From a virus, in the IMG/VR virus record IMGVR_UViG_3300015262_000025, positions 1-31,948 of that record: DNA of 31,948 bases. The stretch is one strand, 5' to 3'. The translations under genes and the position numbers were made by a program. Below are positions 7,405 to 19,545 of the stretch, piece by piece (position 1 is the first letter of the stretch; each line of letters opens with the position of its first letter). Below the pieces are notes generated by a model that worked only from the letters and a program-made list of their open reading frames with translations, did no database searches and had not been told where the DNA came from.

Positions 7405-7521
7405 ATGTTCACCTTGCTCCTTCAGTGCTACCGGGCCGGGCAGATCGAAGAGCCCGAGTGGCAGCAGCACCTTGCTGATCCGATGTTTGCAGCGTGGGTG
7501 AGGAAACATGGCACTCCCTGA
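7405..7521 (+). CDS. 38-residue conserved-type phage protein before holin
   Basis: This short gene starts at ATG 7405, two bases after the tailspike stop, and ends at 7521, overlapping the next gene by 14 nt. The product begins MFTLLLQCYRAGQ and is rich in Trp, Gln and Glu, with no membrane span. Similar tiny proteins of this form sit between fibre and lysis genes in many betaproteobacterial phages, from memory. The function is unknown. Confidence 0.6.
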   Translation: MFTLLLQCYRAGQIEEPEWQQHLADPMFAAWVRKHGTP

Positions 7522-7819
7522 TTTCGATGTCGTGGCGGCCAAACTCGCCGGCGTGGCCGGCTCGCTGGTGTCGATGCACTTCCTGCAGGGCTCTTGGCCG
7601 CAGCGCGTCAGTACCGCCATCTGTGGTGCGCTGATCAGCTTTTACGCAGCGCCCTACGTCTCTACCCGCGTCGGCATCCCTGAGGGCCTGGGCGGCTTCC
7701 TGTTGGGTCTCTTCGGGATGGCTATTGCCTCACGTCTCTGGGAGTGGGTTCAAACCACCCCCATTGCCGGCGTCTGGCAGATCGTCATCGACTGGCTCAA
7801 GAAAAGGGCAGGCGTTTGA
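7508..7819 (+). CDS. Small membrane protein, holin candidate
   Basis: This 103-residue protein has a probable short helix at about residues 12-28 and hydrophobic segments at about 30-50 and 58-78. It ends in a basic amphipathic tail (IDWLKKRAGV). It is the first of two adjacent small membrane proteins directly before the endolysin, the usual place for a holin that opens the inner membrane at lysis. No family-specific motif was recognised. It may instead be the antiholin, with the next gene as holin. The start at ATG 7508 follows AGGAAAC. Confidence 0.65.
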   Translation: MALPDFDVVAAKLAGVAGSLVSMHFLQGSWPQRVSTAICGALISFYAAPYVSTRVGIPEGLGGFLLGLFGMAIASRLWEWVQTTPIAGVWQIVIDWLKKRAGV

Positions 7820-7821
7820 TC

Positions 7822-8118
7822 ATGGAAAGCATCTTCATCACAGTGCACGCGGCCATTTCCGTTCTCTGCTGGTTCATCACCGCAGCCGGCGCGACCCTGG
7901 CCGTCTTCTCGAAACGGATCAACGACACCCTGACCGAGCGCATCGGCCTGGCTGCCATCTCCATCGGCGCCGTGGGCACCGGCTGCCGCATCGTGCAGGC
8001 CGGCTGGGTGTCCAACGGCGGTCTGTTCATCTCGCTCGCGCTGGCCTTCTACGTGTGCGCGGTGTTCTGGAAGCACTGGGAACGGGTTCCTGGCGGCGGC
8101 GCTGACAAGGGGCATTGA
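7822..8118 (+). CDS. Second small membrane protein, holin/antiholin candidate
   Basis: This 98-residue protein has three hydrophobic stretches, at about residues 4-29, 41-58 and 66-83, separated by short charged loops, and a hydrophilic C-terminus. Its stop shares the base at 8118 with the endolysin start. Three-helix architecture and position fit a class I-like holin. Together with the preceding membrane gene it could form a holin/antiholin pair. The role is inferred from topology and context only. Confidence 0.65.
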   Translation: MESIFITVHAAISVLCWFITAAGATLAVFSKRINDTLTERIGLAAISIGAVGTGCRIVQAGWVSNGGLFISLALAFYVCAVFWKHWERVPGGGADKGH

Positions 8119-8600
8119 TGAACTTCGACACAGCTTTTGACCGGCTCATCGGCCACGAAGGGGGCTATGCGAACAGCCCCTCCGATCCCGGGGGCGAGAC
8201 GATGTGGGGCGTCACCGAGCGCGTTGCTCGATCAAACGGCTACAACGGCTCCATGCGCGCCCTGCCGCGCGAGACGGCGAAGGCCATCTACCGCAAGCAG
8301 TACTGGGATGCCATCCAGGCCGACAAGCTGCCCGAAGCGCTGCGCTTCGAGGTGTTCGACGCAGCCGTGAATAGTGGCGTCAAGCAAGCCGTCATGTGGC
8401 TGCAGAGCCTGGCCGGCGTGGACCAAGACGGCGCGCTCGGCCCGGTCACGCTGGCAGCAGTTGCGCGGCTCGATGGCGCCAGCGCCGCGGCAGCGTACAC
8501 CGGCATCCGCCTTCTGTTCATGACCAACCTGACCACTTGGGGCATGTTCGGCCGCGGCTGGGCGCGCCGGCTGGCGTCGAACCTCAGGGCCATGGCGTGA
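8118..8600 (+). CDS. Endolysin, glycoside hydrolase family 108 muramidase
   Basis: This 160-residue peptidoglycan hydrolase has the family signature HEGGY at residues 13-17 (Glu14 is the expected catalytic acid) followed by SDPGGETMWGVT at about 22-33. The C-terminal half, with FEVFDAAVNSG and DGALGPVT motifs, matches the peptidoglycan-binding region usual in this family. There is no signal peptide, so a holin is needed for it to reach the wall. I chose ATG 8118 over an upstream TTG because it overlaps the previous stop. Its own stop overlaps the Rz start. Confidence 0.92.
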   Translation: MNFDTAFDRLIGHEGGYANSPSDPGGETMWGVTERVARSNGYNGSMRALPRETAKAIYRKQYWDAIQADKLPEALRFEVFDAAVNSGVKQAVMWLQSLAGVDQDGALGPVTLAAVARLDGASAAAAYTGIRLLFMTNLTTWGMFGRGWARRLASNLRAMA

Positions 8601-17649: not shown

Positions 17650-17863
17650 GCAGGCAGTTGAAGCCGGCGGCAGCGGATGACACCGCCAAGTCGAGGTCTT
17701 CGGCGTATCGGCCGCACAACCCGATCTTGTCGGCGCCTTCACGGCTGGAGGCCAGATAGATGAATCCATCAAGTTCTCCCTGTTCTGCGCGTCGAAGCAG
17801 GAGGCGCAGAGTGTTTGCCACGCTGAGGTGGTTTTGGCTTTGTATCGGTACTGCGTTGGTCAC
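17543..17863 (-). CDS. Unknown protein downstream of repressor (106 residues)
   Basis: It starts at GTG 17863, or possibly GTG 17821, inside the 3' end of the repressor gene in another frame, an overlap of 53-95 nt. The centre has LRLLLRRAEQGELDGFIYLA followed by GRYAEDLDLAV. This resembles a widespread small phage protein pattern (helix, then GE-gl-yi strand) of unknown function. The C-terminal third is basic. It ends inside the 5' part of the Rap1a-like frame. Confidence 0.6.
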   Translation of the reverse strand: MTNAVPIQSQNHLSVANTLRLLLRRAEQGELDGFIYLASSREGADKIGLCGRYAEDLDLAVSSAAAGFNCLLGHKVCVERETLPKRLRKESPSAQACSIVVRSMRK

Positions 17864-18317
17864 TTTTCGAGCCCTTCTTTTCTGAAGTGCCAGGTATGTC
17901 TAGTTCGAGGTGTTTTCTTTTATTTGCAACCAATGTATCAGTCCGTACTACGTCGCGTATGGGCATTTCTCCCATTTTTTGTAAAGACGTGGAAACGTTT
18001 TCCACTCGCGGGTAGGCGGCTCGCAGCCCGCGCGCCGTAACGATCATGGCAATGCGGCCTTCATCATTAGTTTTGCGATAAAGGGTAAGAATTTCAGCCT
18101 CACCCTGACCGGTCGCCTGTTCGCCGAGCATGAGGTACTCCGCAGTTGTATCAAGGTGTTCGCATAAGGCCATCAGAACATCGGCTTTGAAGCCGGCGCC
18201 GTTCTCGATGTCGGAGATGACGGACTGATCCACGCCGACGAGTTTCCCTAGATCGCTCTGCCGAGCGAATCCTTTCGCCTTACGAAGATCCCGGACGCGA
18301 TTGCCAATAGTTTTCAT
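17769..18317 (-). CDS. CI-like transcriptional repressor without peptidase domain
   Basis: This 182-residue protein has an N-terminal HTH_3/XRE domain (residues ~5-62; recognition segment GVDQSVISDIENG). Only a ~115-residue basic, Ser/Pro/Lys-rich tail follows, with no S24/LexA-type Ser-Lys peptidase. It is divergent from a Cro-like gene across a 71-bp region with two operators, so it is the probable immunity repressor. A weak TAGGTT box six bases before the ATG suggests a maintenance promoter giving a leaderless or very short-leader mRNA. Induction probably does not work through RecA-stimulated self-cleavage. Confidence 0.82.
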   Translation of the reverse strand: MKTIGNRVRDLRKAKGFARQSDLGKLVGVDQSVISDIENGAGFKADVLMALCEHLDTTAEYLMLGEQATGQGEAEILTLYRKTNDEGRIAMIVTARGLRAAYPRVENVSTSLQKMGEMPIRDVVRTDTLVANKRKHLELDIPGTSEKKGSKSDQRSTDTKPKPPQRGKHSAPPASTRRTGRT

Positions 18318-18350
18318 GCGCGGAACCTAGCACCGCCATAGCAACAATGA

Positions 18351-18364
18351 ATGGGACACCCCAT
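18351..18364. promoter_or_regulatory. Operator ATGGG-N4-CCCAT, right pair, copy 1
   Basis: A perfect inverted repeat with spacer ACAC overlaps the -35 box of the rightward early promoter. It directly abuts the second copy. Confidence 0.8.
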
Positions 18365-18381
18365 ATGGGGCGGCCCATAAT
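18353..18381 (+). promoter_or_regulatory. Rightward early promoter (PR-like)
   Basis: GGGACA (18353-18358) and CATAAT (18376-18381) are spaced 17 bp apart and lie across two operators. The predicted start, about 18388, is one base before the Cro-like ATG. There is no Shine-Dalgarno sequence there, so the mRNA may be leaderless. Confidence 0.6.
18365..18378. promoter_or_regulatory. Operator ATGGG-N4-CCCAT, right pair, copy 2
   Basis: The same inverted repeat, with spacer GCGG, begins immediately after copy 1 (centres 14 bp apart) and overlaps the -10 box. Adjacent sites on slightly different helix faces suggest cooperative binding or competition between repressor and Cro. Confidence 0.8.
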
Positions 18382-18388
18382 ATCGGTC

Positions 18389-18592
18389 ATGAACTGGCCC
18401 GAACTCCTCCAAGACCTCCGCGCCGCTGACATGACGCAGGCGCAGATCGCGTCTTTCGCTGGCGCACACCAATCCACCATCAGCGATTTGGCGACCAAGC
18501 GCACGAAGGAGCCATCTTTCGAGATCGGCAACAAGTTGCTGACCTTGCACAAGCGCGTTCAGCGCCGCGCCAAGTCGAAGGCGAGGGCCTGA
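18389..18592 (+). CDS. Cro-like HTH regulator
   Basis: This 67-residue protein is mostly a helix-turn-helix (MTQAQIASFAGAHQSTISDLA) with a basic C-terminus (KRVQRRAKSKARA). It is the first gene right of the operator region and divergent from the repressor. Its likely role is early repression of the maintenance and early promoters at the ATGGG-N4-CCCAT sites. I chose ATG 18389 because the longer frame from 18347 would start inside the operators. Confidence 0.8.
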   Translation: MNWPELLQDLRAADMTQAQIASFAGAHQSTISDLATKRTKEPSFEIGNKLLTLHKRVQRRAKSKARA

Positions 18593-18595
18593 ACC

Positions 18596-18691
18596 ATGGC
18601 CGACCTCATCCCCATTGCCGCCGTCTTCGTCGCCATTGCAGTGCTGCTGTACGTGGTCATCGACGTTCTGCTCGACGACTACGCGGACTAG
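18596..18691 (+). CDS. Single-pass microprotein 1 (31 residues)
   Basis: ATG 18596 is three bases after the cro-like stop, with GAGGG upstream. The product is almost entirely one hydrophobic helix (AAVFVAIAVLLYVVI) with an acidic tail (DDYAD). It is the first of four such genes in a row. The function is unknown. Confidence 0.6.
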   Translation: MADLIPIAAVFVAIAVLLYVVIDVLLDDYAD

Positions 18692-18694
18692 GCC

Positions 18695-18799
18695 ATGAGC
18701 AACTTCCCTTTCGCCCTTCGCGTCTTTCTGGACGTGGTTGGCATTGTTCTGTTTGTGGCTGGGCTGGTTTATCTCGTTTCTCGTGACGACAAGGAGTGA
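18695..18799 (+). CDS. Single-pass microprotein 2 (34 residues)
   Basis: It starts three bases after microprotein 1 ends. One helix (VVGIVLFVAGLVYLV) is followed by a charged end (SRDDKE). The ribosome site is weak. It shares layout with its three neighbours. Confidence 0.58.
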   Translation: MSNFPFALRVFLDVVGIVLFVAGLVYLVSRDDKE

Positions 18800-18802
18800 T
18801 CC

Positions 18803-18901
18803 ATGACCTTCATCGAACTTGCCCTCGCCGCTGCCACTTCCGTTGGCGGCGTGCTGATCTTGTTGATGCTCCTGATCGACGCCTACGTCATGCGGGATTG
18901 A
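18803..18901 (+). CDS. Single-pass microprotein 3 (32 residues)
   Basis: It is preceded by AAGGAG, the best ribosome site of the four. One hydrophobic segment (SVGGVLILLMLLI) lies before the short tail DAYVMRD. Unlike a random ORF, it has consistent spacing of three bases from both neighbours. Confidence 0.6.
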   Translation: MTFIELALAAATSVGGVLILLMLLIDAYVMRD

Positions 18902-18904
18902 GCC

Positions 18905-19027
18905 ATGGACAACGACCTCTTCCTTGCCTTCATCGCCTTCTGGGGCGTGTTCGTCCTGCTGCCTTGCTATCTGGCTGGCAGCACCTGGATTGCTCGAGCT
19001 AACCAGCAGATCGGCGAGTGCGAGTAG
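18905..19027 (+). CDS. Single-pass microprotein 4 (40 residues)
   Basis: An acidic start (MDND) is followed by a helix with aromatic residues (LAFIAFWGVFVLLPCYLAG) and a polar tail. It is the last of the tandem microproteins and lies about 25 bp before the internal terminator. Confidence 0.6.
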   Translation: MDNDLFLAFIAFWGVFVLLPCYLAGSTWIARANQQIGECE

Positions 19028-19052
19028 GGCGGCGGTGTGTACGTGAACCATG

Positions 19053-19073
19053 GGACGAATCGTCCTTTTTTTT
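19053..19073 (+). terminator. Terminator inside the rightward early operon (tR1-like)
   Basis: GGACG and CGTCC form a 5-bp stem (extendable by one G-U pair) with a 3-nt loop, followed by eight T residues. It lies between the microproteins and the CII-like gene, where lambda has tR1. The stem is short, so termination may be partial. Confidence 0.6.
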
Positions 19074-19125
19074 GACTATTTCAACGAGTCATGACGGGAC
19101 AAATGAAATGCGGAGTGATGTTTCG

Positions 19126-19545
19126 ATGAACCAATACGAACTGACTGCTCGCCCTGACATGCAGGTGGTGGACCCCGCGCTGATCGCGCGCCAGCCGTCG
19201 ATGACCAAGGCCCTGCAGCTTTGCCAAACCTTGAGCGGCCTTGATGACAAGGCATTCCTCGGCCCCGGTGGCGTGGTGAAGGATGGCGCCCAGTGGTCCC
19301 GGATCATGGGCTCGGGCCAGCACAACTTCCCGCAGGACAGCCTGAACACCTTCATGGACAAGGCCGGGAACGAGGCTCCCTTGCTCTGGCTGCTGCACTC
19401 GCGTGGCTACGACATCACTTCCTTGCGCAAGCTCGAAACCGAGACCGAACGCGATCTGCGTTTGGCCCGCGAGGAAATCGCCCGTCTCCGCGCCGAGCGC
19501 GACGTGGAGCGCCGTCTGTTCCGTGATTTGAGGATCGCAGCATGA
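19126..19545 (+). CDS. CII-like phage regulator (putative)
   Basis: This 139-residue protein starts at ATG 19126 (GGAG about ten bases upstream); ATG 19108 is possible. The first half contains a helical DNA-binding-like region (ALQLCQTLSGLDDKAFLG, then DGAQWSRIMGSGQHNFP) and NEAPLLWLLHSRGYD. The second half is a Glu/Arg coiled coil. Proteins of this type occupy the cII position in many betaproteobacterial prophages. Its place just after a terminator in the Cro-side operon agrees, but activator function is inferred. Confidence 0.65.
   Translation: MNQYELTARPDMQVVDPALIARQPSMTKALQLCQTLSGLDDKAFLGPGGVVKDGAQWSRIMGSGQHNFPQDSLNTFMDKAGNEAPLLWLLHSRGYDITSLRKLETETERDLRLAREEIARLRAERDVERRLFRDLRIAA

Follow-up and report, generated by a model that had tools for sequence, protein, structure and literature searches.

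Tandem single-helix microgenes behind cro in a temperate podovirus: conservation, variable membership and a candidate membrane-directed accessory role

The window analysed here is the whole 31,948-nt stretch of IMG/VR record IMGVR_UViG_3300015262_000025. Profile matches to a T7-type terminase, head-tail connector, capsid, integrase, holin and endolysin identified it as part of a temperate podovirus, and its terminase and the one encoded by Yersinia phage YeP4 were 60% identical. The immunity region has a divergent CI-like repressor gene and a Cro-like gene on either side of a PR-like promoter set in operator-like repeats. The Cro-like gene is followed by a row of four very small genes (m1 to m4, the array), an intrinsic terminator and a regulator gene in the position of cII (Table 1). 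Nucleotide searches of annotated phages with the array region and most of the window gave no matches. In YeP4, the cro-position gene is followed directly by a primase gene. Acidovorax phage Aval carries a related cro, but its slot shows no clear gene for a small membrane protein. The protein in the cII position was modelled by AlphaFold with a pLDDT of 84.8; its residues 25-93 resembled XRE-type HTH folds with a middling score (PrgX, Z 6.2, rmsd 2.1 over 64), and its PHROGs match was at E 0.01. A lysis cassette was considered for the array and rejected, as the holin and endolysin genes lie about 10 kb away.

Table 1. Features of the immunity region and lysis genes, in window coordinates.
Feature	Position	Strand	Basis
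Holin	7508-7819		phrog_2359, E 4e-10
Endolysin	8118-8600		phrog_315, E 6e-51
CI-like repressor, divergent	17769-18317	-	HTH_31/HTH_3 E 2e-8; phrog_8, phrog_4
Open frame antisense to array and cro	18314-19051	-	
PR-like promoter in operator-like repeats	18353-18381	+	9/12 consensus (shuffles mean 0.6)
Cro-like HTH gene, 67 aa	18389-18592	+	phrog_6831 E 6e-16; weak HTH_31
m1, 31 aa, MADLIPIAAVFVAIAVLLYVVIDVLLDDYAD	18596-18691	+	ORF list; L055 homologue 30/31 aa, 91/96 nt
m2, 34 aa, MSNFPFALRVFLDVVGIVLFVAGLVYLVSRDDKE	18695-18799	+	ORF list; same slot in L055, L033, L031, L036, L057, L027, L034
m3, 32 aa, MTFIELALAAATSVGGVLILLMLLIDAYVMRD	18803-18901	+	ORF list; 97/99 nt with L055, 94/99 with L033
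m4, 40 aa, last in array, MDNDLFLAFIAFWGVFVLLPCYLAGSTWIARANQQIGECE	18905-19027	+	Family alignment; ends all nine complete arrays
Predicted intrinsic terminator, tR1-like, closing the cro-array unit	19052-19075	+	Hairpin call
Imperfect 10-bp direct repeat, candidate operator of the downstream regulator	19096-19117	+	Read from sequence
cII-position regulator, 139 aa, HTH domain and long C-terminal helix	19126-19545	+	AlphaFold, fold match, phrog_2345

The four microgenes all start with ATG, share a single frame and occupy 432 bp. The first-pass annotation had described ORFs of 31, 34, 32 and 40 codons separated by 3-nt spacers and placed directly behind cro; the coordinates bore this out, the gap between the end of the cro-like gene and m1 also being 3 nt and the cro-like identity resting on the phrog_6831 match. 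The best 17-residue Kyte-Doolittle means were 3.0, 2.6, 2.4 and 2.5 for m1 to m4, respectively. Across the tabulated microgenes, the cores of the products were uncharged over 15-26 residues, and the net charges of the window products were -5, -1, -2 and -3. For m4, the AlphaFold model was one helix spanning residues 3-39 (pLDDT 84.7). Each product had also been described as one hydrophobic helix with a short charged end. The single-helix prediction was supported throughout; the short end did not hold for m4, which has a longer polar tail.

Short ORFs are common, and a GC-rich stretch might give rise to such frames by chance. Among forward-strand ORFs of 22-70 aa, the window has only six that reach a Kyte-Doolittle value of 2.0, four of them being m1 to m4. 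The tandem run of four hydrophobic small ORFs compared with a maximum of two (three cases) in 5000 dinucleotide shuffles of the region, and in 200 shuffles of the whole window the run never exceeded one. Together with the recurrence of the array in eight further contigs and one partial contig, and with the excess of synonymous change described below, these shuffles leave chance frames or a compositional artefact with next to no credibility.

Relatives were located by IMG/VR scans using the neighbouring genes and the microproteins; all are IMG/VR contigs, several of them incomplete. Besides the window, complete arrays of two to five members were found in the same slot in eight viral contigs, and one more array was cut by the contig end (L002). 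The order m1-m2-m3-m4 of the window recurred in L033 and L031. The other arrays read m1-m2-m3-m5-m4 (L055), m2-m3-m4 (L036 and L057), m1-m2-m4 (L034), mX-m4 (L029) and, in L027, a 168-aa gene followed by m3-like-m2-m4. This 168-aa gene (L027, 5205-5711) lies between cro and the microgenes with 0-nt junctions (TAAATG) on both sides and had no match in Pfam. In L033, two further small hydrophobic ORFs (43 aa and 55 aa) that share 4 nt were seen outside the array on the minus strand (561-856). The product m4 was the last member of all nine complete arrays, forms the clearest family by alignment and is regarded as a firm family, while m1-m3 are labels of slot and similarity. These three match one another weakly, and the window m1 and m2 were only 26-40% identical to the L033 proteins of the same label (40% for the m2 allele).

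Random frameshifts and stops in the related phages, which the first-pass annotation had named as evidence that would speak against real genes, were looked for and were absent. All 31 microgenes in the nine arrays (29-48 aa) were intact, a count partly conditional on detection since the frames came from ORF listing and translated search; the m4 and m2 matches from tblastn, a search that works on interrupted frames as well, were all intact too. The junctions from the cro-position gene through m4 measured 0, 3 or 6 nt in 32 of 32 cases, and those downstream of the array in the window were -4 and -1. At equivalent places, the stop codons varied (26 TGA, 3 TAG and 3 TAA), and in-frame readthrough into one multi-pass protein was therefore rejected as the principal interpretation. 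Other small membrane ORFs occupied the slot in more distant relatives that share the cII-type gene (L016, 27 aa; L015, 45 aa; L014, 57 aa; L009, 64 aa), which suggests that small membrane proteins are favoured at this very site.

Comparison of the closest arrays pointed to the exchange of single genes. L055 shared 95% (m1) and 98% (m3) nucleotide identity with the window, yet its m2, lying between these near-identical neighbours, was a different allele and was instead 95% identical at the nucleotide level to that of L031, as was its m4 (99%, with identical proteins). Similarly, L033 had an m3 close to the window (95%) and an m1 close to L031 (94%). These patterns indicate that units of about 100 nt were replaced between nearly identical neighbours. 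The flanking regulators were far more divergent: the cro-position genes fell into five groups without detectable mutual similarity (window-type, L055, L057, L034 and L029) and the cII-position genes into four (window and L036 as distant relatives; L033-type; L031; L055). The cro-position gene of L029 (4105-4338) matched the HTH families YdaS_toxin (E 5e-9) and P22_Cro (E 9e-7), indicating that there the whole regulator had been exchanged. As the array was kept while unrelated regulators were exchanged on both sides, it behaves as a module of its own, not tied to one immunity type.

This independence bears on a possible part in the lysis-lysogeny decision, in which the microproteins would, for example, act like CIII and occupy the FtsH protease that degrades the cII-position regulator. 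The array does lie just upstream of the cII-position gene in most cases, and CIII and SpoVM, two small helical peptides associated with the membrane, are FtsH inhibitors (PMC1838920). However, CIII has 54 residues and a charge-rich amphipathic helix, whereas the microproteins have uncharged transmembrane cores; the CIII family of Pfam was not matched by the window four at E up to 10 or by several relatives at E up to 1; and the array is retained while unrelated cII-position proteins are swapped. Such a tuning role is considered improbable.

The variable membership likewise bears on the idea that the products are subunits of one hetero-oligomeric membrane complex, built around m4 in a fixed ratio set by coupled translation. 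The constant presence of m4 at the end of the array, the uniform spacers and the tight coupling would suit such a complex. Against it, m1, m2, m3 and m5 are each missing from some phages and the order differs in L027, where the m3-like gene precedes m2, which makes a fixed assembly a poor candidate. More generally, members that come and go between phages speak against a joint role that is essential or obligatory.

Selection on the microgenes was assessed in eleven close pairs, in which pN/pS was 0.44. Substitutions at codon positions 1, 2 and 3 were distributed 40:15:40 (chi-square p 0.001, a value that is only indicative because the close pairs share some sequences and are not fully independent). 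Replacements at hydrophobic residues stayed hydrophobic in 21 of 28 cases (0.75 against 0.56 expected, p 0.055). Since second codon positions set hydrophobicity, their sparing and the hydrophobic replacements fit selection for a membrane helix over exact residues. The signal appears modest and comes from few sites; if read correctly, the array is an unusual example from nature of selection acting on hardly more than one transmembrane helix. Taken with the intact frames, m1 to m4 are very probably conserved real genes, and their conservation as genes is well supported.

The repressor strand was considered as well, since the functional product could be an overlapping gene or RNA on that strand and the sense microgenes its shadow. 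The in-register antisense frame was open in all nine arrays and reached about the cI start in seven of them; in three phages (the window, L036 and L027), its stop codon and the cI start codon share bases within the sequence ATGA. However, an open antisense frame of array length has a probability of about 0.43 at the codon usage of the genome, and at other genes here the antisense strand stays open for 435 and 569 codons. The pN/pS ratio was higher for the antisense frame (0.54) than for the sense frames, the antisense frame was broken inside cro in L031 and L029, and the conserved sense starts and Shine-Dalgarno (SD)-like sites have no antisense reason. An antisense product as the real object of selection is thus very unlikely.

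Signals for expression were then compared. The -10 element (CATAAT) ends 7 nt upstream of the cro ATG in the window, and such an element was found 6-8 nt before the start codon in the window, L027, L033, L036, L031, L055 and L057; the promoter layout was kept in L031, L055 and L057 despite unrelated sequence. With the -10 element so near the ATG, the cro mRNA is probably leaderless. Beyond m4, a hairpin with a T-run, differing in its stem, was present at +31 to +39 in L033, L027, L055, L057 and L002; the same test found no clear close terminator after the array in L029, L031, L034 and L036. Between the terminator and the cII-position gene, clear 10-bp-spaced direct repeats were seen in L014 (4959-4977) and L027 (6068-6086), and their sequence varied with the type of cII-position gene; the counterpart in the window was not picked up by the repeat tool. 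These repeats are likely the operator of the regulator.

For many microgene starts, the 3' end of the gene before contained an SD-like sequence, for example AAGGAG TGA TCC ATG. In ORF2 (AAGGAG) and, more weakly, ORF3 (GCGGGAT), the codons for the C-terminal charged residues double as this sequence, and translation signals may thus account for some of the charged end. One short early transcript with coupled translation would be the natural reading of these features, and early timing is what we infer from the order promoter-cro-array-terminator.

Annotation usually overlooks genes of such length. The microproteins had no significant match in Pfam, PHROGs, NCBIfam, PADLOC or the PDB, and no PADLOC anti-phage defence model was matched at E up to 1. 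Below cut-off, m2 gave HMM matches to MgtS (E 0.12) and CcoM (E 0.012), both far below the curated cut-offs. Translated searches (tblastn) with relatives of m4 gave no homologue in 50,697 phage records and, over phages and plasmids together, nothing convincing. The m4 profile had no match in about 800 bacterial genomes; this was a loose first look at a sample without a known positive, and the result therefore says little about hosts.

The size and hydrophobicity of the products would also suit small membrane peptides that arrest the host as toxins, whether of a type I-like or a membrane-depolarising kind. YohP, a 27-aa membrane protein of E. coli that lowers membrane potential and metabolism, offers a precedent (PMC12719787). 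On the other side, the window products all have a negative net charge, and the products overall are mostly acidic or neutral. Type I toxins known so far are mostly basic. No Rfam family was found in 18200-19300, although antitoxins of new families would escape such a search. A toxin role is accordingly regarded as unlikely.

The reading preferred here is that the microgenes encode early membrane-directed accessory proteins acting in superinfection exclusion or in modulation of the host or its defences, to which we assign a probability of roughly 0.5; the CIII-like, toxin, fixed-complex and antisense readings are each less likely. It fits best with the exchangeable slot, the variable membership, the independence from the regulators and the precedent of phage Fc02 discussed below. 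The microgenes would be cassettes of about 100 nt in one frame, running from cro to the terminator upstream of the cII-position regulator. Infection or induction would start their transcription with cro from PR, CI would keep them silent in the lysogen, and translation would pass from one to the next by reinitiation across the 0-6-nt spacers. The products are predicted to insert into the inner membrane, where they may modulate host membrane proteins or membrane-acting defences, or exclude superinfecting phages, and single cassettes would be swapped between phages. Such swapping is expected if the targets differ among hosts or rival phages, and the reassorting arrays suggest that the products act on the membrane of the host cell as infection begins. 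A point against the exclusion form of the reading is that exclusion usually pays most in the lysogen, a state in which PR is off.

A more tentative extension is a combinatorial system of swapped transmembrane-helix cassettes, in which m4 is the constant member and the others are effectors on differing membrane targets of hosts or rival phages. If true, the uniform 0/3/6-nt spacing would keep translation coupled whichever cassette was inserted. Single-helix genes that are conserved in tandem and reassort within the immunity region would amount to a compact store of membrane-targeting effectors. With four genes in 432 bp, the array is a well-delimited test set for studying what phages do to the host membrane during the first minutes.

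The first-pass annotation had named no described counterpart of the layout, and no such array was found in the open-access papers searched, subscription papers lying outside that coverage. Lambda CIII and SpoVM resemble the microproteins as small helical membrane-associated peptides, CIII also being expressed early, but they are amphipathic rather than transmembrane, are encoded by single genes and share no family match with the microproteins. YohP, MgtS and CcoM are likewise of about 30 residues with one helix and act via partner binding or on the membrane; they are, however, chromosomal stress or respiratory factors. The exchangeable accessory and anti-phage hotspots of temperate phages (PMC9122126) also combine a fixed slot with exchangeable cargo, whereas the cargo of the array is tandem single-helix genes of about 100 nt that are swapped individually.

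The nearest precedent appears to be gene 10 of Pseudomonas aeruginosa phage Fc02 / Ps56, which lies next after ner and confers superinfection exclusion, the Fc02 Gp10 protein being recovered in the insoluble fraction (PMC9936078). Fc02 also carries overlapping genes, olg1 and olg2, opposite ner and gene 10 (PMC9936078), and open frames overlap on the repressor strand in the window as well. In type phage B3, the gene after ner is ORF16, which is far longer than the microgenes; no equivalence to Fc02 gene 10 is implied. No microgene array is described for Fc02, and the activity of gene 10 has been demonstrated, whereas that of the array is proposed here. The likeness drawn here is one of position rather than of sequence: both gene 10 and the array lie directly behind the cro/ner gene in the early lytic operon, the array starting 3 nt behind cro and ending before the terminator.
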